From the NCBI GenBank assembly GCA_021812245.1, contig JAKAOK010000007.1, forward strand, positions 1 to 64,000: a DNA stretch of 64,000 nt. Reading direction: 5' to 3'. The notes below the pieces were generated by a model, which was not told the origin of the DNA, did no database searches, and saw nothing but the letters and a program-made list of their open reading frames with translations. This document shows positions 19,904 to 49,863 of the stretch, one piece after another (within the stretch, counting starts at the first letter, position 1; each line of letters opens with the position of its first letter). A program made the position numbers and the translations under genes. Source of the DNA: a bacterium (GTDB taxonomy: Bacteria > SZUA-79 > Acidulodesulfobacterales > Acidulodesulfobacteraceae).

Positions 19904-19932
19904 TTGACAAATTATTTACAAATGGGTATATT
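19904..19932 (+). promoter_or_regulatory. Sigma70 promoter TTGACA-17-TATATT
   Basis: Consensus hexamers with exact 17-nt spacer upstream of the TPR gene. Confidence 0.7.
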
Positions 19933-19998: not shown

Positions 19999-20970
19999 AT
20001 GAAAATTAAAAGCATTATTTATCCGATTATGTTATTTTTATTTTGTTATTTCTTTTTAAGTCCTGCATCGACCTTTGCTTTAACTAAGATTAGTAAAATC
20101 AAAACAGAGAAAGAAACGGGCATAAGCGACGTTAAAAAAATATTATTCAAAAATCCAGAACTTGCTATAAAAAAACTAAACGTTATGGTCAAAAAAAATC
20201 CGAAAAACCCAAAATTATATTATTATTTAGGAATATCTTACGGCAGATTAAATAAAACCCATAAAGCAATTAATTATTATAAAAAGGCTATAGGATTAAA
20301 TCCTAAATATTTAAACGCTTATGATAATTTGGGTCTTGCTTACAACAAAAACCGCAAATATAAAAAAGCCTACGAAACTTTTTTAAAAATGATTAAATTA
20401 AATCCAAAAAATCCGGTTTATTATAATAATGTCGGTTTTGTAGAAGAAGAGAGGGACAAAAACCATAAAGCCGTGGAGTTTTTCAATAAAGCCGTAAGTT
20501 TAAATCCTTTCTATACTATGGCTTATCTGAACTTAGGTTCTATTTACAGAAAAATGGGAGAAAATAGGCGGGCGGCGAAAGAATACAATAAATCAGGATT
20601 AGCATATTTCAGGACTGGGAATTATATGCAGGCGGTAAATTCTTTTAGGCTTTCTATAAAATTATACCGCAGGTATATTTATCCATACGGAAATATCGCC
20701 AATTCATACGTTAAAACGGGAAATATCGGTAAAGCCGTTTTTTACTATACTTCAAGCGGCAATATGTATAACGATAAACAAAGGTATCATAGAGCTATAA
20801 AGGATTTTAATCTGGCATTACAATACAATCCTAAATATATGCAGGCTATCCACGGTATAATTTTATCGTATCAAAAATTAGGGAATATGACTATGGTTTC
20901 CCGATATATGCGCGAAGAAATTCAGATAGGCGGGGTAGGAGCAATTTTTGGCGCAGGAATGCTCCCGTAA
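19999..20970 (+). CDS. Secreted/periplasmic TPR-repeat protein
   Basis: Signal peptide plus repeated TPR units (YYYLGISYGRLNKTHKAINYYKKAIGLNPK etc.). Confidence 0.88.
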   Translation: MKIKSIIYPIMLFLFCYFFLSPASTFALTKISKIKTEKETGISDVKKILFKNPELAIKKLNVMVKKNPKNPKLYYYLGISYGRLNKTHKAINYYKKAIGLNPKYLNAYDNLGLAYNKNRKYKKAYETFLKMIKLNPKNPVYYNNVGFVEEERDKNHKAVEFFNKAVSLNPFYTMAYLNLGSIYRKMGENRRAAKEYNKSGLAYFRTGNYMQAVNSFRLSIKLYRRYIYPYGNIANSYVKTGNIGKAVFYYTSSGNMYNDKQRYHRAIKDFNLALQYNPKYMQAIHGIILSYQKLGNMTMVSRYMREEIQIGGVGAIFGAGMLP

Positions 20971-20998: not shown

Positions 20999-21027
20999 TT
21001 GACATTTTTTTTGAAAATATATATAAA
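20999..21027 (+). promoter_or_regulatory. Sigma70 promoter TTGACA-17-TATAAA for the GrpE/Hsp70 cluster
   Basis: Consensus hexamers with exact 17-nt spacer, about 0.1 kb upstream of ORF 21141. Confidence 0.7.
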
Positions 21028-21140
21028 AAATAATAAATGATTAAATAATAAAAAAAGAAGATTTAGAATTTACGGCATAGATTAGTTATATTTTGTTGTT
21101 ATATAAATTTCGATAAAAACAACTCTTACGGAGGCGGAAA

Positions 21141-21767
21141 ATGGAGAACGGAAGCGCAACGGAATCATATTTAAATTCCCAGATTAACGATTCGGAAAGC
21201 TCGGAGATTTCAAGCGATAAGGCAAAACCCGTTGATAATATAAAAGAATACGATTTGCAATCAATAGATCAAAAAGTTTTTTTACTAATAAAGGAAAACA
21301 ATGATTTATTAAAAAAAATTAAGGACGATATAGACGTTAAAATTGCCGTTGACGAAACTAAAGATAAAGCTTTCAATAAGTTATACGACGAATTAAAAGA
21401 GGCAAAAGAAAAAGATAACATTAAAGATTCTGCAATTAGACCCTTATTGGGCGATTTATTGTTATTTTATGATAGTCTTATAAAGTTTAAATCAAAAATA
21501 GAAACTAATAATAAAAATGATGAAATGTTATTAAAAGAAACAGATTTTATTTTAGATGAGCTATTAGAAATATTTTATAGGCAAAACATTGAAATTATAC
21601 CGGAAAATTCAGACCGCACTTATGATTCCAAAATTCAAAAAGCTGTAAAAATTGAAAAAAATCAAGAAATTGACGATAATAAAATAATCAAAATTATTAG
21701 AAGCGGTTTTTTATGGAAAGATAAAATGCTCAGACCACAAGAGGTTTGTGTAAATAAACATAATTAA
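21141..21767 (+). CDS. GrpE-like nucleotide exchange factor (divergent)
   Basis: Coiled coil then C-terminal IIKIIRSGFLWKDKMLRPQEVCV, typical of the GrpE beta-domain end; directly upstream of an Hsp70. Confidence 0.75.
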   Translation: MENGSATESYLNSQINDSESSEISSDKAKPVDNIKEYDLQSIDQKVFLLIKENNDLLKKIKDDIDVKIAVDETKDKAFNKLYDELKEAKEKDNIKDSAIRPLLGDLLLFYDSLIKFKSKIETNNKNDEMLLKETDFILDELLEIFYRQNIEIIPENSDRTYDSKIQKAVKIEKNQEIDDNKIIKIIRSGFLWKDKMLRPQEVCVNKHN

Positions 21768-21801
21768 TAAATAATTATAATAATTAATTTAGGAGGTAAA
21801 T

Positions 21802-23409
21802 ATGCCTGAAAACATTGAAAATAATAATTTAGTATTCGGTATTGATTTAGGAACTACATTTTCAGCCATCGCTTATATCGATGAATTTAAAAAACCGGTT
21901 ATAATTCCAAATATAGAAAATAAACTTACGACGCCGTCGGTTATTAATTTTTATAGTGCTGATTCATATGTTGTAGGCGACGAAGCAGTAAATAGATTGC
22001 TCGCAGATCCTTCAAATACGGTAAGCTTTATTAAGCGCGAAATGGGTTCAAAAGATTATTCATTATCTTATTACGGCAAAAATTATACGCCGCAAGAAAT
22101 ATCGGCAAAAATTCTCGCAAAATTAAAAAAGGATGCCGAATCTTATTTTCAAAATAAAGGCTTAAATATTGAAGTTAAAGATGTCGTAATAACGGTTCCG
22201 GCGTATTTTGGCATGGAACAGCGCTCTGCAACTAAAGATGCCGGTGAAATTGCAGGACTAAACATATTAAATATACTAAATGAGCCTACCGCTGCCGCAT
22301 TATCTTACGGTATTAATAACGTAAATAAAAATAACACCGTATTTGTTTTTGATTTAGGCGGAGGAACATTTGATGTAACTATTTTAGAAATAAAAGGAAA
22401 TGATATAAAAATGCTCGCTTCCGATGGGGATGCCCGTTTAGGGGGGAAAGATTGGGACGATAAAATATTGTCATACTGCGTAGAAAACTTTAAAAAAGAA
22501 AATAATAATATAGATCCCCAGGATAACCTCGACTCATATCAAGAGCTTTACGATAGGGTTTTAAGGGCTAAAATTTCATTATCGACTCGACCAAACGCTG
22601 ATATAATTACAAGCGCCGATGGTAAAAGTTATAAAAACCAAATGAATGTAGAAAAATTTGAGGAACTTTCGGAAGATTTGCTGGATAGATGCAAGCATTG
22701 TTCCGAATTGGTTTTGAATAAAGCCGGAAAAAAATGGGATGATATTGATACGGTTTTATTAGTCGGGGGATCGACTTATATGCCTATGATAAGAAAATTG
22801 GTGGAAAATATGAGCGGTAAAAAGCCTTCCACCGAGGTAAATCCCGATCTTTGTGTGGCGCAAGGCGCCGCTTGGTACGGATTTTTACAAAAAACAGAAG
22901 ATATAGTTAATAAACAAAGAACAATATTAGGCGATAAGCAAGCGGAAATTACTCAAAAAACATTATTAGGGTCATTGCCGTCAATTAAAGTTACCGAATG
23001 TGTAGCTAAGTCCTTAGGTATAATTACCATTGGAGCAGATGACAAAGAGTTCGTATTTAATCTGATAAAGGCGCAAACTCCTATTCCATGCGAAATAGTT
23101 AATGATGAACTTACTTATCATGATAACGGGCAAACATCGCTACGGGCGCGGTTAACGGAAGGGGAAGGAAGTAACGTAGAATTAGTTTCTAAGATTGGGG
23201 AGTTTACTCTATCCGGCTTGCCGCCTAGAACAGTAGGCGATAAAATTAGGATAGTTTTAAAATATAACAAAAATAAGATATTAGAACTTTTAGTGGAAGA
23301 TTTGGAAACACATAAACAAATAGCAGGAAAAGTCGAATTAGCAGGTGGAATGGATAAAGAGCAAAAGGACGATGCCATTAAACAGCATATATCTCAAACA
23401 CAAAAATAA
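21802..23409 (+). CDS. DnaK-like Hsp70 lacking the usual C-terminal lid
   Basis: GIDLGTTFSAIAYI, DLGGGTFDVTILE, VLLVGGSTYMPMIRKLVE; 535 aa, ends soon after the SBD-beta. Confidence 0.93.
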   Translation: MPENIENNNLVFGIDLGTTFSAIAYIDEFKKPVIIPNIENKLTTPSVINFYSADSYVVGDEAVNRLLADPSNTVSFIKREMGSKDYSLSYYGKNYTPQEISAKILAKLKKDAESYFQNKGLNIEVKDVVITVPAYFGMEQRSATKDAGEIAGLNILNILNEPTAAALSYGINNVNKNNTVFVFDLGGGTFDVTILEIKGNDIKMLASDGDARLGGKDWDDKILSYCVENFKKENNNIDPQDNLDSYQELYDRVLRAKISLSTRPNADIITSADGKSYKNQMNVEKFEELSEDLLDRCKHCSELVLNKAGKKWDDIDTVLLVGGSTYMPMIRKLVENMSGKKPSTEVNPDLCVAQGAAWYGFLQKTEDIVNKQRTILGDKQAEITQKTLLGSLPSIKVTECVAKSLGIITIGADDKEFVFNLIKAQTPIPCEIVNDELTYHDNGQTSLRARLTEGEGSNVELVSKIGEFTLSGLPPRTVGDKIRIVLKYNKNKILELLVEDLETHKQIAGKVELAGGMDKEQKDDAIKQHISQTQK

Positions 23410-23429
23410 AATTTCTCTATAATAAAATT

Positions 23430-24632
23430 ATGTCAGAAAACCAATATGCAGAATCTATACAATCTTTCGAGAGTTTTATAGGCGAAGCCAAAAAACATAA
23501 AGATAAAGATTTTATTAAGGCCGATTTTTTTTTAAAAGAGGATGATAACAGTTATATTGATATTTACATCTTTTTAAAAATAAAAAAAGATGTACCTCCA
23601 GATGAAAAAAAAGACGAACTTAATAAGCTTATAAGTTCTATACAAAAGGGGGATAAACTTAGTTCGCTTCATAAATTAGCAATTAATGTGCGTGGTGAGT
23701 TTAAACTTTTATCCAATGATGATTTTAAAGAATCCTATAGGTCACATATTTTATCAAAAATAGAAGAAGAAATAAAAAAGAGATTAGGTGTTTTTAAAGG
23801 AACATCAACAATCGAGAATAAAGTAATAGATAATATAAAAAGAGATATTACAAAAGAATTTAATTACAATGATGATGATGTTTTATTTACTAAAAATCAG
23901 ATACAAGAATATTTAGATGAAACAATAAAGAAGTTATTGAACGATTCTGGAATTAAAATAAATACCGATATTAATACTAATAATTATAAAAGTAATAATA
24001 ATCAAAGCGGGAATAATACAAATTATACTAAATCTAATACCTCGAAAAAATTTGCAATATTAATAGGCTTGATAATTATAGTGTCTTTAGTTATTTATTT
24101 TAAAAAAAGAGGGATTACTCATTCAAATAAAAAAATAATAAAACCTGTTTCAAATAAAAGTATAAATATAGCAAAAAATAATAATAATTTAAAACCTATA
24201 AATCGGATAAATCATGGCAATATATATCAACCAAACATTGTTCGTAAATCTCAAAATATAGTAAAGGAAAATAAAACGACCGCGAGTGATGTAGTTTCGA
24301 CGAAATCCTCTGTTCCGTATAAAAAAACGGTTAGATTATCAAATTCACAAAAGCCTTCGCCTAAGGTTGCCTATGTTCCGAATATTTCAAGCAAAATATT
24401 TCAAGAACAAGGATTCCAGCTATTTAAGATGTCCGGTTGCTTATATTGCCACAGAATCTATAATAAGGGTTATAAAAATGGTTCAAATCTTTCCAATATA
24501 GGTTCGTCGATGAGTTTGGCGGAAATAGAAAACCAGATTATCCGTCCTGCAAATTCTTCTATGCCCCCAAACGCTAATATGCCAAGCAATGAAGTAGCGC
24601 AAATTGCAAATTGGTTGGAAAGTTTAAAATAA
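23430..24632 (+). CDS. Single-pass membrane protein: N-terminal cytoplasmic domain of unknown function, Asn-rich linker, TM helix, C-terminal c-type cytochrome domain
   Basis: TM KFAILIGLIIIVSLVIYF; heme c motif CLYCH (codons at 24438-24452) and downstream MPPNANMPSNEVAQIANWL with a candidate Met ligand. Confidence 0.8.
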   Translation: MSENQYAESIQSFESFIGEAKKHKDKDFIKADFFLKEDDNSYIDIYIFLKIKKDVPPDEKKDELNKLISSIQKGDKLSSLHKLAINVRGEFKLLSNDDFKESYRSHILSKIEEEIKKRLGVFKGTSTIENKVIDNIKRDITKEFNYNDDDVLFTKNQIQEYLDETIKKLLNDSGIKINTDINTNNYKSNNNQSGNNTNYTKSNTSKKFAILIGLIIIVSLVIYFKKRGITHSNKKIIKPVSNKSINIAKNNNNLKPINRINHGNIYQPNIVRKSQNIVKENKTTASDVVSTKSSVPYKKTVRLSNSQKPSPKVAYVPNISSKIFQEQGFQLFKMSGCLYCHRIYNKGYKNGSNLSNIGSSMSLAEIENQIIRPANSSMPPNANMPSNEVAQIANWLESLK

Positions 24633-24689
24633 AATGAAAAATAATTTAATTTTTAAAATTTATATAGCATTCGTTGATGGTATTTTTTT

Positions 24690-24920
24690 ATGCTAAAAGA
24701 TTTTATACTTGGTTTTTTAATAGGGTTTATAATAATTAAAGTTTTATTGGGGATACTCAAAATATCTTTTAAGTTTATTAAAATGATGGTTCAATATTCA
24801 AAAACTTTATCAATTAAATATTTTGGCAGTTCTGGAGAAGCGAGTATTAAAATCGGTCAATTGCTTATATTTGTTTTAATGTTTTTGGTTGTGTATATGT
24901 TGTTTATAATGATTTTTTAA
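24690..24920 (+). CDS. Small membrane protein, two predicted TM helices
   Basis: 76 aa, hydrophobic termini; lies in the cluster. Confidence 0.5.
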   Translation: MLKDFILGFLIGFIIIKVLLGILKISFKFIKMMVQYSKTLSIKYFGSSGEASIKIGQLLIFVLMFLVVYMLFIMIF

Positions 24921-24946
24921 TCAGTTATAACCAGTTATTTATTTAG

Positions 24947-25729
24947 ATGATTAATTTGAAAAAAGATATAATAAGATTACTGATATTCATAATATTTTTT
25001 GGTATTAATTTCTTTTTGCCGATTAATTCATACGGCTCTATTACCATAGGGAGTATTGCCGAAAAGCAACAAAATTTCCAACATTATTATTTTTTAGGCA
25101 ATTATTATCTTAAAAATAAAGATATTAAAAAAGCAATTTTTTATTACAATGATAGTTATATTTTGGCAAAAAAATTTAAAAATAAACAGTTTAAATTATT
25201 AAGTTTGAAGTCGTTATTTTGGATTTATTTTAAGGAGAAAAAAATAAACAAAGAATTTTATTATTGCAAAGCTATAATTAAAAATTCTAGTAACAATAAA
25301 CTGCAGTTGGCAGACAGATTTTATTATATGCAGGCAGGTTTTATTTACGGCAATTATTTTCATAACTATAATAAGTCTATATTTTATTATAAAAAGGCTG
25401 TTTTGCTATATAAATCGGTTCATAATTTTTATGTAATAGGAAGAATATATTACTTTTTAGGCGAGGATTACTTGAATTTAAAGGATTTTTATTATGCAAG
25501 GAAATATACCTTAAAATCCATTCATATTAACTCAAGGCAGAACAGTCATGCTTTAATTACAGGTTTTGGATTTGAATCGTTAGGCTTGACATATCTTTAC
25601 AATAATAATAAATATTTTTGTATTTTATATTATAAAAAAGCTTATAAAATTTTTAAAAAAGATAAATTTTATTCAGGGATGAAAGAAATAAAGTCTTTAC
25701 TAATTAGACTAAATAAATTAAAAAGTTAA
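24947..25729 (+). CDS. Secreted TPR-like repeat protein
   Basis: Signal peptide; repeated YYF/YY helices typical of TPR (YYFLGNYYLKNKDIKKAIFYYNDSY). Confidence 0.65.
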   Translation: MINLKKDIIRLLIFIIFFGINFFLPINSYGSITIGSIAEKQQNFQHYYFLGNYYLKNKDIKKAIFYYNDSYILAKKFKNKQFKLLSLKSLFWIYFKEKKINKEFYYCKAIIKNSSNNKLQLADRFYYMQAGFIYGNYFHNYNKSIFYYKKAVLLYKSVHNFYVIGRIYYFLGEDYLNLKDFYYARKYTLKSIHINSRQNSHALITGFGFESLGLTYLYNNNKYFCILYYKKAYKIFKKDKFYSGMKEIKSLLIRLNKLKS

Positions 25730-25752
25730 TAAATTAAACAAGGAGTGATAAA

Positions 25753-26280
25753 ATGAAAAATAAGATATCGTTGTCGTTAAAGCTAATTATTTTCGTTTCG
25801 ATTGTTTCTGTAATTATTTCAATTTGTAATGTTAATAAAACTTTTGCATCCGTAGGAAGTACATTAAAAAAAATGCAATCGAAATATCATATGAAAAGGA
25901 TTCCTTTAAGCAAACTGTATTTGCTAGAGCCTAATCTTTCGCAATATAATTACAAAAATTCCGACATAAAGGCTTACGAATATACTTTAAATAAAGTTAA
26001 ATATGAAGCCGTATTTAATGATTCCGGCGTATGCTGGATGGAACTTGCAGTAGCAAATAGTTCCGCAATTATACCGTTAAGCGCTTTGATTCAAAAAAAT
26101 CTTTACGGATTTCCTATTTTATTTAAGACGCTAAAATACATACCTAACGAATACGAAAAACTTCTATACGGAAGAAGTGTAGGCAAGGTAATTTATATTA
26201 TGCAATATATTTACGAAAATAATTCTATATTACAGGAAGCGGTAATGCCTTCTATGTCGCCGGACGGAAATTACTATTAA
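25753..26280 (+). CDS. Secreted protein of unknown function
   Basis: Signal peptide and SD (aaggagtgat); no recognised motif. Confidence 0.6.
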   Translation: MKNKISLSLKLIIFVSIVSVIISICNVNKTFASVGSTLKKMQSKYHMKRIPLSKLYLLEPNLSQYNYKNSDIKAYEYTLNKVKYEAVFNDSGVCWMELAVANSSAIIPLSALIQKNLYGFPILFKTLKYIPNEYEKLLYGRSVGKVIYIMQYIYENNSILQEAVMPSMSPDGNYY

Positions 26281-26457
26281 TTAATATTTTTTTAAAAAAT
26301 AGCAACATAAATAAGACAATAATTTGTATTAGCACCCTAATTGACCGGAATAAAATTAGACGATATATAATTAAGTCGATTTAAGGTTAAATAGATGTAC
26401 CTCGTATAAAATAATATTAGTTTTTATCCAAAAAATTAATTAATTTTAAAGAGGAAT

Positions 26458-26505
26458 AATATAAAAAGTCTGACTTATTAACTAATAAGTCAGACTTTTT
26501 ATATT
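26458..26505. terminator. Bidirectional intrinsic terminator between convergent genes
   Basis: Perfect inverted repeat AATATAAAAAGTCTGACTTATTA / TAATAAGTCAGACTTTTTATATT (23 bp) with A-tract and T-tract. Confidence 0.88.
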
Positions 26506-30413: not shown

Positions 30414-31325
30414 TTAAATTCCTTCCTTTGAAAGCTCGGAAAATATCTTTTTTGTTTTATCCGATATGTCTGAAGGTATATCGACGAATACGGTAACTAT
30501 TAAATCGCCGGTTTTTTTCCCCGAAACATCCGTAGCCCCTTTTTTAGAAATACGGAACTTTGTCCCGTTTTGGGTTCCGGCAGGGACGGTAAGCATAAAC
30601 TTGCCGTCTATTGCGGAGATTTCTACCTTTGCTCCAAGAACGGCTTCGGTTAATTTTATTTTTTTATTAACGTAGATATCGTTTTCTTTTCTTTCGTATA
30701 TGTTATCGTTTAAAACCGAAATCGTAATATATAAGTCGCCGTTAGCGCCTCCATTGAAACCCGAGGACCCTTTTCCGGAAAGTTTTATTTTTCCGCCGTT
30801 CGAAATTCCCGCAGGTATCTTTATCTTTATCTTTTCACCGTTTAAATTTATTATTCTTTCGGCGCCCTTGACGCTTTCCGCGACCGATATTTCAAGCGAA
30901 GCGTTCAAATCGTTTCCTTTTGCCGGTCCATTTTTTCTTCCAGACCTGTTAAAAAGGTCCGAGAATATATCCTCGAAGTTAACCCCCTCCCCTCCGCCGG
31001 CATTGTTGTAATTATAATTGAAGCCGGAAGCGCCGCCTCCGGAATAGTCGTAGTAATATTGTCCCTGTGAAGCTCCGCCACCCGCGCCGGCATTTTTATA
31101 GTTGAAATAATTGGTTCCAAGTTCATCGTATTCTTTTCGTTTTTTTTCGTCTTTTAGAATGTCGTATGCTTCCTGAAGTTCTTTAAATTTCGATTCGGCG
31201 GTTTTATCGTTAGGATTGACGTCTGGGTGGTGTTTTCTTGCTAATTTTCTGTACGCTTTTTTTATTTCGTCCGCGGAAGCGGTTTTACCGACGCCGAGTA
31301 TTTTATAGTAATCTTTATATTCCAT
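30414..31325 (-). CDS. DnaJ-class co-chaperone (CbpA-type, no zinc-finger domain)
   Basis: J domain [36 protein letters not shown] region; C-terminal domains without CxxCxGxG. Confidence 0.93.
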
Positions 31326-31455: not shown

Positions 31456-31560
31456 TCAGGAGTAGCACGAATCCTTTAAGCCGTATCCCTCGGTAATTAA
31501 AGCGTAAAATTCTTCCGCGGGGATTTCAAGAAACAGCGGCGCATTATAGATCTTTTTCAT
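31456..31560 (-). CDS. RiPP precursor peptide (34 aa to first UGA; possible Sec extension to the UGA at 31443-31441)
   Basis: MKKIYNAPLFLEIPAEEFYALITEGYGLKDSCYS*; strong SD AAGGAGGTGA 5-6 nt upstream; start overlaps the end of the PqqD-like ORF; next to radical SAM/SPASM gene; shorter than the ORF track cutoff. Confidence 0.75.
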   Translation of the reverse strand: MKKIYNAPLFLEIPAEEFYALITEGYGLKDSCYS

Positions 31561-31840
31561 AAAGCTCACCTCCTTTTTCATTGTCGTTGTCATAAATATA
31601 TTTTTTATCTAAAAGAATGCGCACCAATCCTTCAAAATCCTTTTCCGCCTCCGTTATTGTTGCGTCAAAGCTTTCCGTTATGTTTAATAGTATGTCTTCA
31701 TCCGTATTTTTCCCGTCGCAAAGCGATAAAATTTCATACGATAATTCGTTAAGTTTATAAATATTACCGCTTATATTGTCGAAAAGCATAAAATTCTCTT
31801 CGTCCTGTTTTAAAGATACGGTATCCGCAAGTATTAGCAT
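31544..31840 (-). CDS. PqqD-family RiPP recognition element/peptide chaperone
   Basis: 98 aa; FMLFDNISGNIYKLNELSYEILSLCDGKNTDEDILLNITESFD. Confidence 0.85.
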   Translation of the reverse strand: MLILADTVSLKQDEENFMLFDNISGNIYKLNELSYEILSLCDGKNTDEDILLNITESFDATITEAEKDFEGLVRILLDKKYIYDNDNEKGGELYEKDL

Positions 31841-31901
31841 TTATTTCTCCCGTAATAAACATAATCATATTATATTTATTATATTATATTGTTATATTCG
31901 G

Positions 31902-32921
31902 CTATATCCAGCATTGCGGGTCTTTAGAGTTTAAATCTCTATTATAATAATAGCTTATAGCTTTACACCCCCCGCACTTGTCGGCGTGGCTGCAACCTGC
32001 ACATCCGTTCTCCCCGTTCCTTTTTCTTAACTTCCACAAAATATCGGAGTTGTACCATACCTTAAAGAGTCCGTCGGTTAAAATATTTCCGAGCGGGAGA
32101 TAAAGCCTTCTGCATGGAAGCAGGGCGCCGTCATGCAGTATGCATAGCGACGATAAGCCTGCAGGGCAATATCCGCCGGCATTTTCGTCTATCAGATTCC
32201 ATAGCGGGCGGGATACTGAAAGTTTAGTATTTTTATTTTTAAATTCTGTTTTTGCACTGGCGTAAACATCGAAATAAACGTTTTTTAGGTCGGAAGCTTC
32301 GATGAAAAATTCATCCCTTTCTATATCGCTCATAGCCGTCATTCTTTCCACCGTTAAAGCATCTATGTTTAGCAAGGCGGCGAGTCTCGGCATATTGGAT
32401 GCCGATCCGATATTTTTTTTATGAAGAGTGAACATTACCGCGGTTTTAATTCCGGAATTTTTAAGCATTTTAATAGAATTTATCGTTTTCAAAAATGTTC
32501 CTTCTCCTCTGACGCCGTCATGGGATTCTTCATCATGTCCATCGAGGGAAACTTGAACTTCGGCTAATTTTTTATAATTTTTAATCTTTTTAATCAGTGT
32601 GTTATCGATAAGCGTTCCGTTGGTCAAAATCGCAATATTTTTGAAATTATCCGAGCTTTCAATCATATCCATTAAATAAAAAAGTCCTTCTGGTTTCAAA
32701 AAAGGTTCTCCTCCGGTAAGGGAAACGAAACATTTCATTTTCCATTTTGCCATCGCTTCATCTAATTTCAGAAATATATCCTTTAAAATATTTAAATCTA
32801 AGGTTTTATGATTATAATCGTTTTGATAGCAATGGACACATCTCAGGTTGCATGAGTCTATAAAATGCCATTGCACGTAAAAATCTTTATTTATATTTTT
32901 TTTATCGTTGTATCCGTCCAT
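31902..32921 (-). CDS. Radical SAM/SPASM peptide maturase
   Basis: CNLRCVHC, SLTGGEPFL, and SPASM cysteines CPAGLSSLC...CRR...CAGCSHADKCGGCKA. Confidence 0.93.
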   Translation of the reverse strand: MDGYNDKKNINKDFYVQWHFIDSCNLRCVHCYQNDYNHKTLDLNILKDIFLKLDEAMAKWKMKCFVSLTGGEPFLKPEGLFYLMDMIESSDNFKNIAILTNGTLIDNTLIKKIKNYKKLAEVQVSLDGHDEESHDGVRGEGTFLKTINSIKMLKNSGIKTAVMFTLHKKNIGSASNMPRLAALLNIDALTVERMTAMSDIERDEFFIEASDLKNVYFDVYASAKTEFKNKNTKLSVSRPLWNLIDENAGGYCPAGLSSLCILHDGALLPCRRLYLPLGNILTDGLFKVWYNSDILWKLRKRNGENGCAGCSHADKCGGCKAISYYYNRDLNSKDPQCWI

Positions 32922-43380: not shown

Positions 43381-44823
43381 ATGGAAGATAGCAAAAAACA
43401 AAATATTTTAAGGCGGTTTCCAAGCGTGCAGTCCATTCTTCAGGATAGTGCGGTCGTCAGGCTTGCGGAATCATTTCCCCATGCATTTATCAAAGAAAAA
43501 ATAGAAGAATTAATAAAATCGGAAAAAAGCAAAGCAATTGAATCTTTAAATTCGGAAAATGAATGCACCGTATCGAATAATTTTAATTTTACGGTCGATT
43601 TTTTCGTTAAAAAACTTTTGGACGATTTGAATAATTTTTCTTATAGCCTTAAAAAGGTAGTTAACGGAACGGGGGTCGTTATTCATACAAATTTAGGGCG
43701 TTCTATACTGCCGGAAAGCGCCGTTAAGAACGTCCGTAAGATTTCGTCTTCATATTCCAATTTAGAATTTAATTTGATAGAAGGAAAAAGAGGTAAAAGA
43801 TATTCCCATATAGAGTATCTTCTAAAAAAAATTTTAAAATGCGAAAAGGCGTTAGTAGTAAATAATAATGCTGCTGCGGTGTTTATGGCGCTTTCATCTT
43901 TTTGCGCAGGATCTAAAAAAGAGGTTATCGTTTCGAGAGGCGAACTGGTCGAAATAGGTGGTTCATTCAGAATACCGGATATAATGAAGGCATCGGGGGC
44001 GGAACTTATAGAAGTAGGGACTACTAATAAAACCAAGCCGCAGGATTACGAATCCGCTATAAACGAAAATACAGCGCTATTATTGAAAGTTCATCAAAGC
44101 AATTTCAGGATGAGCGGTTTTGTCAGCGCGCCGTCGAGCAAAGATATAGCCGCAATCGGAAAAAAACATAATATACCCGTTATGGAAGACTTGGGTTCCG
44201 GCAGTTTCGTCGGTATGGAAAAATTCGGATTGCCCTGCGAGCCTACGGCGCAGGAAGTCGTTAACGCAGGCGTGGACATCGTTACGTTCAGCGGAGATAA
44301 GCTCCTTGGAGGACCTCAGGCGGGAATAATAGCCGGAAAAGCCGGATATATCGATATGATCGCTTCAAATCCTTTAAACAGGGCATTTAGAATAGACAAA
44401 ATGACGCTTGCCGCCCTGGAAGCAATTCTATTTGAATATTTAGATATAGAAAGAGCCGTTAAAAATATTCCAACGCTTTTTCTTATAGCCCAAACCGAAA
44501 AGGAAATTAGAAAAAAAGCCGTAAAACTTTTAAATAAGATTAAAAAATTTAAAAATATCGATAAAAATTTATTCGATTTTAAAATAATCGAAGATTTTAG
44601 CATAGTCGGCGGCGGGGCGCTTCCGGATTATGAACTTAAGACTTTTGCTTTGAGAATTGCCCATAAAAAAATAAGCGCGTCAGGACTGGGCAAATTTTTA
44701 CGCGACTGTAATGTGCCGATTATCGGAAAAATAAAAAACGGGGAATACTTGCTTGATATGAGAACGGTATTGGAAGATGATTTTAGCGATATATTAAATG
44801 CCTTTGTATTAATTTCAAAATAA
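43381..44823 (+). CDS. selA: L-seryl-tRNA(Sec) selenium transferase
   Basis: NGTGVVIHTNLGRS, VVNNNAAAVFMAL, FSGDKLLGGPQAGII. Confidence 0.96.
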   Translation: MEDSKKQNILRRFPSVQSILQDSAVVRLAESFPHAFIKEKIEELIKSEKSKAIESLNSENECTVSNNFNFTVDFFVKKLLDDLNNFSYSLKKVVNGTGVVIHTNLGRSILPESAVKNVRKISSSYSNLEFNLIEGKRGKRYSHIEYLLKKILKCEKALVVNNNAAAVFMALSSFCAGSKKEVIVSRGELVEIGGSFRIPDIMKASGAELIEVGTTNKTKPQDYESAINENTALLLKVHQSNFRMSGFVSAPSSKDIAAIGKKHNIPVMEDLGSGSFVGMEKFGLPCEPTAQEVVNAGVDIVTFSGDKLLGGPQAGIIAGKAGYIDMIASNPLNRAFRIDKMTLAALEAILFEYLDIERAVKNIPTLFLIAQTEKEIRKKAVKLLNKIKKFKNIDKNLFDFKIIEDFSIVGGGALPDYELKTFALRIAHKKISASGLGKFLRDCNVPIIGKIKNGEYLLDMRTVLEDDFSDILNAFVLISK

Positions 44824-47214: not shown

Positions 47215-48798
47215 ATGAATATCAATAAAGAAACAAAAGTAGGCATTTTCGTCGTTATAGTATTGCTTATACTTGCCTATTTTTCGGTAAAGGTTGGGAA
47301 AATCAGACTCTTTAAGCCGCCCGCCTATACTATTTCCGCATATTTTAAATCTGCAAACGGCATCGGTACGGGAACTCCCGTTACGATGGCCGGAATAAAA
47401 ATAGGAACGGTAGAAAAAATCAGTCTGGAAAAAGGACTGGCCAGGGTTTATATGTCCATAAAAACCGAGTATAAGGTTTATCCGCAATATGTTGCGTCTA
47501 TAAGGTCGATGAGCCTGCTTGGAGAAGCCTATATATCTATATCGCCGGTCAGCGGAGAGACCGGGTCCAAAACTAAAGAATCTTTGAACAGCGAAGTTAT
47601 AAGAAGCGAGATGTCCCCTCAGAGTATGTCTGCCCTTATTATGAAATTTTCCAAGACTGCAGGCGATCTGGAAAAAGTTTCTAAATCGTTAAAAAATTCG
47701 ATAGGGACAAAGACGGGGGAAAAAAATATAAAGGCTATACTTCACAATATCGCGACGCTTTCGAGAAATTTAAACAGGCTTGTGTATGTAAACCAGCAAA
47801 ACGTGGATGTCATTCTGTCTAATTTTGCTTCTATTTCAAAAAATATAAACGGTTTAACGGTGCGGAATGATGCCGCCATTACCAGGACTATTCATAATTT
47901 CGATTCCATATCGTATAATCTAAAAAAAGAACTTCCTGCCATTACCGAAAATATAAAGGGACTTTCTAAAAATCTTAATTATATCGTCGCTAAAAATAAA
48001 GGTAATATCAACAGTAGCCTTAAAAATATAAATGCCGATACAAAAAAATTAAAACTTACCTTAAATGAGCTGTACGGAATTTCTTCTAAAATCAATAGCG
48101 GTCAGGGAACTATAGGCAGGTTAGTCAACAGAAATTCGGTGTATGACAACCTGAACGGCTCGCTTAAGGGCATTAATAATTTAGTCGGCGGATACAGCCA
48201 ATTTCAGGTTAAGGTAAATATGAATTCCCAGTATCTTGCAAGGAGTAAAGGCTCTATTTCGCAGGTGAACGTTAAACTTCAGCCGTCCCCGGGGCATTAT
48301 TACGAACTCGGTGTGGCTTCGGTGCCGATGGGTTATGGGAATACTTACGGAGAAACTCAGACGACCACTTATACTACAAATAATCCTCCGTCGGGGCAGT
48401 TTTATCCTTCGAGTATAACTACTAATACGACTCAATACAGCTACTCCAATAATATAAAAATTAACGCTTTGATAGCAAAAAATTTCTATAACTTTACGCT
48501 TCTTGCCGGTTTGCTGTATTCTACCGGCGCTGTCGGCGTCAACTATTACGTGCCGGATACCGGCAAAAATCTTAAGCTTTATGCAAGGGCGTTCGGTTTT
48601 AATGCCGATAACAACGGCGTCAGCGAGGATATTAACGCGGGCATCGCCTATACTTTTTACAGGCATATATTTTTGGATGCCGGATATGACGATATATTCA
48701 ATAACGGCAACAGGTCGGTATATTTCGGCGGGGGAGTCAAATTCACGGATAAAGACCTTAAATACCTTATAGTAGGCGGGAAAATACCCACTCCTTAA
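47215..48798 (+). CDS. mlaD: MlaD/MCE-domain protein
   Basis: N-terminal TM; KVGIFVVIVLLILAYFSVKVG, ANGIGTGTPVTMAGIKIGTVEKI; long C-terminal extension. Confidence 0.9.
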   Translation: MNINKETKVGIFVVIVLLILAYFSVKVGKIRLFKPPAYTISAYFKSANGIGTGTPVTMAGIKIGTVEKISLEKGLARVYMSIKTEYKVYPQYVASIRSMSLLGEAYISISPVSGETGSKTKESLNSEVIRSEMSPQSMSALIMKFSKTAGDLEKVSKSLKNSIGTKTGEKNIKAILHNIATLSRNLNRLVYVNQQNVDVILSNFASISKNINGLTVRNDAAITRTIHNFDSISYNLKKELPAITENIKGLSKNLNYIVAKNKGNINSSLKNINADTKKLKLTLNELYGISSKINSGQGTIGRLVNRNSVYDNLNGSLKGINNLVGGYSQFQVKVNMNSQYLARSKGSISQVNVKLQPSPGHYYELGVASVPMGYGNTYGETQTTTYTTNNPPSGQFYPSSITTNTTQYSYSNNIKINALIAKNFYNFTLLAGLLYSTGAVGVNYYVPDTGKNLKLYARAFGFNADNNGVSEDINAGIAYTFYRHIFLDAGYDDIFNNGNRSVYFGGGVKFTDKDLKYLIVGGKIPTP

Positions 48799-48807
48799 AA
48801 AACAAAA

Positions 48808-49863
48808 ATGACGTCTAATAAGTACAAACTTACAAACCTGACAAGTGCCCACGGCTGAGGGTGCAAGATAGGTCCGGAGGACCTTTCTAAAATTCTCGAA
48901 AAATTGTCCGTGCCTGAAAACGACAATGTTTTAGTCGGGTTCGGATATAAAGACGATGCAGGCGTTTATAGAATCAACGACGATACATGTCTTATTCAGA
49001 CCGTAGATTTTTTTACTCCGGTCGTGGATGACCCCTATTCTTTCGGTCAGATTGCCGCAGCCAATGCTCTTTCGGATGTTTATGCCATGGGGGGGAAGCC
49101 TTTAACGGCGTTAAATATTGCCTGTTTTCCTATAAACGATATAGAAAAAGAGGTTTTTAATCTTATACTTATGGGCGGATTAGATAAGATTAAAGAAGCT
49201 GGCGCCGCGCTTTTAGGGGGTCATTCAATCGATGATAAAGAAATAAAATACGGTCTTAGCGTTACTGGTATATGCGGCATAGATGAAATTTATTCAAATA
49301 GCGGCGCGGAACAGGGGGATATTCTATATCTAACTAAAAGTCTCGGTACTGGATTTGCCGTAAGCGCCATATGTACGGATTTTCTTAATGAAGATACGCT
49401 GAACGAGGCTACGCTGTCTATGTCGAAGCTAAACAAATATGCTTCCGAATTAGCGGTTTCTTTAATGTCGCCTAATGCCGTAACCGACGTTACCGGGTTC
49501 GGGCTGATAGGGCATCTGAGCGAAATGATGATTGCAAGCGGAACCAGATGTGAAATAGACTTGAATTCCCTTCCCGTTATAAACGGTGTTCCGGAATTGA
49601 TAAAAAAGGGCATTAATCCGGCGGGAACAAAGCGCAACAGAAAATATTTCAGCGAATATACGTCTATGAAAGACGGGCTTGAGGAAAATTTATTATGGAT
49701 AGCTTTTGGGGCGGAAACTTCGGGGGGTTTAATATTTTCGGTTCCGAAAGACAAAGCCTCTGAAACGGAAAAAATATTTAAAATCAAGGGCGAACCTCTT
49801 TATAAGATAGGCAGGGTTTTAGATAAAAGCGTAAAAGACGGCATTTATATAAACATAACATAA
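48808..49863 (+). CDS. selD: Selenide, water dikinase SelD as a selenoprotein (in-frame UGA = Sec at 48856-48858)
   Basis: ATG 48808 reads MTSNKYKLTNLTSAHG-U-GCKIGPEDLSKILEKLSV then continues in frame into the listed ORF ([39 protein letters not shown]-type motifs). Confidence 0.95.
48870..48884 (+). promoter_or_regulatory. Probable bSECIS hairpin of selD
   Basis: AGGTCC-GGA-GGACCT, 6-bp perfect stem beginning 11 nt after the UGA. Confidence 0.65.

Follow-up and report, generated by a model that had tools for sequence, protein, structure and literature searches.

Accessory modules made up of HSP70, GrpE and DnaJ/FNIII proteins alternate with kinase-PP2C-vWA modules in the neighborhoods of GAP1-N2 GTPases (Kaur et al., 2020, PMC7159879). 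In DnaK, Arg167 and Gln378 bond the aspartate of the J-domain HPD motif (PMC8215388). Sensor domains with c-type heme are known from the Geobacter chemoreceptors GSU0582 and GSU0935 (PMC3460858). Here we describe an operon at positions 20999-26503 (promoter through terminator hairpin) of a 64,000-nucleotide stretch of contig JAKAOK010000007.1 (hereafter the window), from a bacterium of the Acidulodesulfobacterales whose genome (G000) comprises 1.78 Mb in 61 contigs and is 87% complete. The operon encodes a GrpE-like protein, an Hsp70 without a lid and a membrane protein ending in a predicted cytochrome c domain. The same cytochrome tail is found on Ser/Thr kinases of related genomes, and the two kinds of module occupy one chromosomal site as alternatives. 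Chances are about even that this operon represents a dedicated accessory Hsp70 module at the inner membrane, with an external heme domain that senses redox or heme state. A preliminary description had proposed an undescribed system, which is too strong in view of the published HSP70-GrpE-DnaJ/FNIII modules (PMC7159879).

A normal dnaK, together with grpE and dnaJ, is found at another place in the host genome, so the operon constitutes a second chaperone set. Its first gene (21141-21767, + strand) encodes a nucleotide exchange factor of 208 amino acids (aa) that is recognized by Pfam GrpE (3.4e-20) and scores far under every NCBIfam GrpE cut-off. It is 59% identical to its counterpart in G023, a genome of another genus in the same phylum, and only weakly similar to canonical GrpE, in keeping with its earlier description as divergent. 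The second gene (21802-23409, + strand) encodes a 535-aa Hsp70 (Pfam HSP70, 5e-116) which, as first described, lacks the lid: its alignment to the 645-aa DnaK of the same genome stops after the β-part of the substrate-binding domain (SBD-beta), and SBD-alpha is missing. The ATPase residues are retained, the position of DnaK Arg167 is taken by Asn and that of Gln378 by Tyr, and the linker reads IKVT instead of the VLLL of DnaK. Membership of the canonical DnaK-DnaJ-GrpE system is ruled out by the absent lid, the IKVT linker and the Asn at 167.

This Hsp70 belongs to a wider clade that is represented in several phyla. A search of 386 diverse genomes with the operon Hsp70 as query returned full-length lidless relatives from G093 (50% identity), G067 (44%) and others, and in another phylum, that of G067, the family is present in 30 of 84 genomes. 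Lidless Hsp70s with GrpE-like and/or J-like partner genes were found in G093, G067, G164, G109, G379, G250, G453 and G491, with a GrpE-like gene accompanying the Hsp70 in G093, G067, G109, G379, G250 and G453. A third gene with a J-like domain devoid of HPD is present in nearly all of these loci; Pfam DnaJ recognizes the domain at 8e-15 in G093, 4e-4 in G109 and 0.004 in G164, with weaker resemblance elsewhere. The remaining parts of these third proteins vary (FNIII-like with a transmembrane (TM) helix, WD40, FGE-sulfatase, TPR, or MshEN with a TM helix). In a tree of 11 sequences the operon Hsp70 groups with those of G093, G067, G164, G109, G379 and G250, apart from DnaK and HscC (support 99/99). 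Eight of eight lidless Hsp70s compared have lost Arg167 (replaced by Asn, Met, Gln or Asp) and keep D8, T11, K70, E171, D194 and T199, and a polar linker replaces VLLL across the clade. Loss of Arg167 alongside partners without HPD suggests, from the sequences, that the trigger of the Hsp70 cycle is altered from the HPD-Arg167 contact. An Hsp70-vWA fusion of G453 retains Arg at 167, and the loss is thus not absolute among related proteins. This second Hsp70 of G453 lies beside the GrpE-Hsp70 pair (locus L189, 1-8166), with a gene for a caspase-like peptidase nearby, as judged by eye.

The third gene (ORF 23430; 23430-24632, + strand) encodes the membrane partner, which is built of an N-domain (aa 1-180), one TM helix (aa ~208-224), a linker rich in Asn, Lys and Ser and a C-terminal monoheme class I cytochrome c domain (aa ~324-400). 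The single TM segment and C-terminal heme domain agree with the first account, the heme domain having a Pfam Cytochrom_C match above cut-off (4e-5, aa 326-400). The heme c attachment motif CLYCH (C337-H341; 24438-24452, + strand) is invariant in 14 of 14 aligned tails, as is the Met of the candidate distal ligand (M378, within SMPP); the CxxCH motif and this conserved Met together point to a class I cytochrome c. Heme is attached to c-type cytochromes outside the cytoplasmic membrane. The tail of ORF 23430 should therefore lie outside and its N-domain inside (N-in/C-out). Genes resembling the c-type maturation genes ResB/CcsA were seen by eye near dnaK in the host genome. The G023 orthologue is 40-44% identical.

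As the third gene after those for GrpE and Hsp70, encoding an N-terminal cytoplasmic domain, a TM helix and a variable outer part, ORF 23430 follows the plan of the J-like partners of related operons. The operon had been said to contain no J-protein; this holds for HPD J-proteins, although a CbpA-type one lies 4 kb downstream (30414-31325, minus strand), and needs amending in that ORF 23430 occupies the slot of the J-like proteins. Assignment of its N-domain as a J-domain was convincing by eye but was not supported by any of the methods applied. Comparison with J-domains by hhalign gave nothing significant, and Pfam returned neither DnaJ nor any other family. The score against a J-like hidden Markov model (HMM) was equalled by 129 of 2000 shuffled sequences for the window N-domain and by 32 of 2000 for that of G023; with an earlier J-like HMM the score was reached by 195 of 500 and 1 of 500 shuffles, respectively. 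AlphaFold (AF2) predicted a window N-domain containing strands (pLDDT 61) and an all-helical G023 domain (pLDDT 70), neither of which fits a J-domain. The N-domain is possibly a degenerate J-domain.

What, then, might a cytochrome tail be doing behind a chaperone? Among the 30 genomes of the phylum set, ten others encode proteins of ~540-650 aa with an N-terminal zinc ribbon and Ser/Thr kinase and a C-terminal TM helix followed by the same tail (in G027 the protein is split across two ORFs). After the G023 orthologue, these kinase tails are the closest relatives of the ORF 23430 tail, with 57-63% identity over 85 aa. Tail, linker and TM helix together match the kinase proteins at E values of 1e-21 to 2e-32, and other cytochromes of the phylum at 1e-11 or weaker. 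In a tree of the tails (85 residues, 14 sequences) the Hsp70-type tails cluster together (100/99) and separately from the rest. In the copies read, the kinase-cytochrome genes lie in a vWA-FHA-PP2C-kinase cluster, the G003 copy showing no FHA ORF, and in most kinase genomes they are followed by a homologue (63-76% identity) of the last gene of the window operon, which encodes a secreted 175-aa protein. At one locus of G028 (L069, 8264-10765) there is no kinase gene. A truncated vWA ORF continues there as a short cytochrome ORF, with the secreted gene next, apparently a deletion remnant of the kinase module. A literature search found no description of a fusion between a Ser/Thr kinase and a cytochrome c domain; a survey of bacterial Ser/Thr kinases describes a kinase-HSP70 fusion in Pirellula and does not mention cytochromes.

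Downstream of the window operon lie TraT-mltG-yqgF-bioB-CbpA-pal-bioC-bioF. At the same site G003 has vWA, PP2C, kinase/cytochrome and secreted genes, followed by TraT-mltG-yqgF-bioB-CbpA-pal, and G007 has the secreted gene at a contig end followed by TraT, its kinase gene lying terminally on a different contig. The site is empty in G005, where modABC-porin is followed after ~410 bases by TraT, and in G014, where modABC adjoins TraT; G002 has a TPR gene alone. These comparisons make kinase and Hsp70 front ends alternatives at one site, with a common type of tail and the secreted gene. The window secreted protein is closest to the same-site proteins of G003 (76%) and G007 (75%), and the simplest reading is that the Hsp70 operon entered beside or replaced a kinase module and retained its secreted gene, a direction of exchange that we infer. 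In G009 a kinase cluster sits elsewhere, flanked by amtB/pilB on one side and the dnaK region on the other; in G000, amtB and the gene next to it are ~90 bases apart. The kinase-cytochrome protein was not found in G000 or G023; mutual exclusion of the two modules is thus seen in the data and is not significant. The G003 kinase module (L068, 2877-10410) contains a pair of vWA genes and, in the reverse orientation, an HD-GYP-type gene whose product apparently includes a globin-like sensor, as judged by eye. Between CbpA and pal the window has what looks by eye like a small cluster for a ribosomally synthesized and post-translationally modified peptide (31456-32921, minus strand), consisting of a radical SAM/SPASM gene (31902-32921), a PqqD-like gene (31544-31840) and a 45-aa candidate precursor (31456-31593); no radical SAM gene is seen between CbpA and pal in G003, G002, G005 or G014.

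Only G023 among the phylum genomes has close counterparts of the Hsp70 (75%), the GrpE-like protein and the cytochrome protein (44%). Its locus (L066) has the same gene order, continuing with the two-TM (53%) and TPR (43%) genes, and the operon core is these five genes. The proposed coupling of Hsp70/GrpE to a membrane cytochrome is therefore upheld by gene order in a second genus. Beyond the phylum the refuting condition given in the preliminary description, Hsp70/GrpE without an adjacent cytochrome gene, does apply, the third gene there encoding WD40, FGE-sulfatase, FNIII-TM or TPR parts. The small two-TM protein (76 aa; 24690-24920, + strand), the probably secreted TPR protein (260 aa; 24947-25729, + strand; TPR_2, 3e-9) and the secreted 175-aa protein (25753-26280, + strand) are all encoded where they had been placed; Pfam and NCBIfam scans assign no family to the first and last. 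The 175-aa gene is absent from the G023 operon and was rejected as part of the ancestral core. The secreted TPR gene upstream (19999-20970, + strand), which the preliminary description had set before the operon, does have its own promoter-like TTGACA-17-TATATT (19904-19932) and is a site neighbor outside the core: G002 has an orthologue (59%) at the same site without the Hsp70 operon, and its membership of the system was rejected.

The six operon ORFs run in one direction with gaps of 20-57 bases, all intact and with coordinates as previously given. The putative sigma70 promoter, TTGACA-N17-TATAAA, matches the consensus exactly at 20999-21027 (+ strand), and is plausibly a real site, though within chance expectation at one mismatch (two sites with at most one mismatch observed in the window, 0.98 expected). 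The terminator is a strong hairpin with a 20-pair stem (26460-26503) that had been placed at the operon end; it begins ~180 bp past the last stop codon, is bidirectional in appearance and would also terminate the convergent TraT-like gene. The impression that the region is richer in AT than its flanks is confirmed by computation: operon genes have a GC content of 0.22-0.36 and a third-position GC content (GC3) of 0.21-0.30, against means of 0.385 and 0.389 for the 49 other window genes (GC3 z of -2.2 to -4.3). Apart from the Hsp70 gene, whose GC3 is still low, the genes of the operon exceed all others of the window in AT content. The suggested accessory origin is supported by this composition together with the empty and alternative sites. 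An Rfam scan of the window gave no match. Farther along the window lie a SelA-like gene (43381-44823) and selD (48787-49863, + strand), whose product reads KLTNLTSAHG*GCKIGPEDL; the in-frame TGA lies upstream of the ORF start, so SelD probably contains selenocysteine.

In the mechanism that we favor, the N-domain of ORF 23430 would dock the lidless Hsp70 and GrpE in the cytoplasm and tether both to the inner membrane, a single helix would span the membrane, and the heme-loaded class I cytochrome c would sense extracytoplasmic redox or heme conditions. Changes in the heme group would be relayed inward to alter the ATPase/client cycle of the Hsp70. Given the lidless, Arg167-less Hsp70 and its dedicated GrpE, bulk folding is a less likely task than that of an ATP-driven switch with a small set of clients, which would probably be envelope or regulatory proteins. 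The external part may cooperate with the two-TM protein and with the two secreted ones (TPR and 175 aa), and in relatives the same tail and secreted protein would serve the Ser/Thr kinase. Since the tail is shared with a kinase-phosphatase-vWA set, it would report a condition to whichever cytoplasmic reader is present, most simply the redox state or the supply of heme or electrons. A broader form of this proposal, which we put forward tentatively and hold to be rather doubtful, is a trans-membrane redox receptor in which one cytochrome c sensor has interchangeable readers, either kinase-phosphatase-vWA or Hsp70-GrpE with an HPD-independent membrane partner. Several points weigh against a sensing module. 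Neither J-domains nor any family gave a significant match to the N-domain. The Hsp70 version is found in two genomes only, and, as 10 of the 30 genomes have the kinase, both would lack it by chance with a probability of ~0.44. The secreted gene, missing in G023, may have remained from an earlier kinase module.

The preliminary description had offered assembly of envelope electron-transfer proteins as the other option. In an envelope-assembly reading, Hsp70-GrpE would assist the membrane insertion or maturation of ORF 23430 and of its secreted partners, and the cytochrome would be an electron carrier or client. Membrane and secreted proteins do form the end of the operon, small monoheme cytochromes abound in the host and its relatives, and membrane proteins are the presumed clients of HscC and its tail-anchored DjlB/DjlC (PMC8215388). 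However, the same tail and secreted protein accompany a kinase-phosphatase-vWA cluster, where a folding service is unneeded, the cytochrome is built covalently into the membrane partner, and an Hsp70 lacking both lid and Arg167 is unlikely to be a folding machine. Because relatives attach the tail, as a transferable module, to a kinase, the sensor is favored and assembly is unlikely. Less probable again is a horizontally moving, ATP-thresholded response system for defense or conflict, like the GAP1-N2-associated HSP70-GrpE, with the cytochrome as trigger or effector arm. The patchy distribution, AT-richness and alternative occupants of one site would fit, as would the Hsp70-vWA fusion near a caspase-like gene in G453 and the HSP70/GrpE and kinase/PP2C/vWA alternatives of published conflict-system neighborhoods (PMC7159879); against it, the secreted and heme parts face outward, and Pfam and NCBIfam recognize no GTPase, nuclease, peptidase or other effector in the operon (PADLOC was not searched). 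Last, the genes might be degenerate remains that lack a coherent function, an acquired Hsp70 operon having come by accident to adjoin the secreted gene left from a decayed kinase module. This is suggested by the kinship of that gene with the same-site kinase-genome copies and its absence from G023, and is very improbable with every ORF intact, five genes kept in another genus and the ATPase residues preserved.

As in the GAP1-N2 systems, the window operon combines an accessory HSP70 with GrpE and has a kinase-PP2C-vWA alternative; their third protein has J or TPR domains, whereas that of the window ends in a TM helix and cytochrome c and has no FNIII. No GTPase family was recognized among the operon genes and nearest neighbors scanned, for which no dedicated GAP1-N2 model was run. 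E. coli HscC is likewise a specialized Hsp70 paralogue that lacks the stretch of DnaK 76-101 and has a dedicated membrane-anchored partner. It keeps the lid and Arg167, has no GrpE partner, and its partners DjlB/DjlC keep HPE. The window Hsp70 is lidless, has Asn at 167, comes with a GrpE-like gene of its own in an operon that lacks an HPD partner, and is 31% identical to HscC, which together exclude it from the HscC family. As far as the literature was searched, three features appear to be new: a cytochrome c tail borne by both kinds of front end, their alternative occupancy of one site, and the loss of Arg167 throughout the clade. If the proposal is right, Hsp70 would be a signaling output wired to an external redox sensor, with kinase and chaperone as exchangeable readers of that one sensor, and the loss of Arg167 with J-like partners devoid of HPD poses a testable question of how an Hsp70 cycle is triggered without the HPD-Arg167 contact. 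The vWA-FHA-PP2C-Ser/Thr kinase clusters of sister genomes share with the operon the TM-cytochrome tail and secreted protein and, in G003 and G007, the site, but the operon has no kinase, phosphatase, FHA or vWA gene. Like the Geobacter sensors, ORF 23430 is predicted to carry one covalent heme outside the cytoplasm, joined through the membrane to a cytoplasmic signaling part; in place of their PAS fold it has a C-terminal class I cytochrome c, with a chaperone or, in its relatives, a kinase on the cytoplasmic side.

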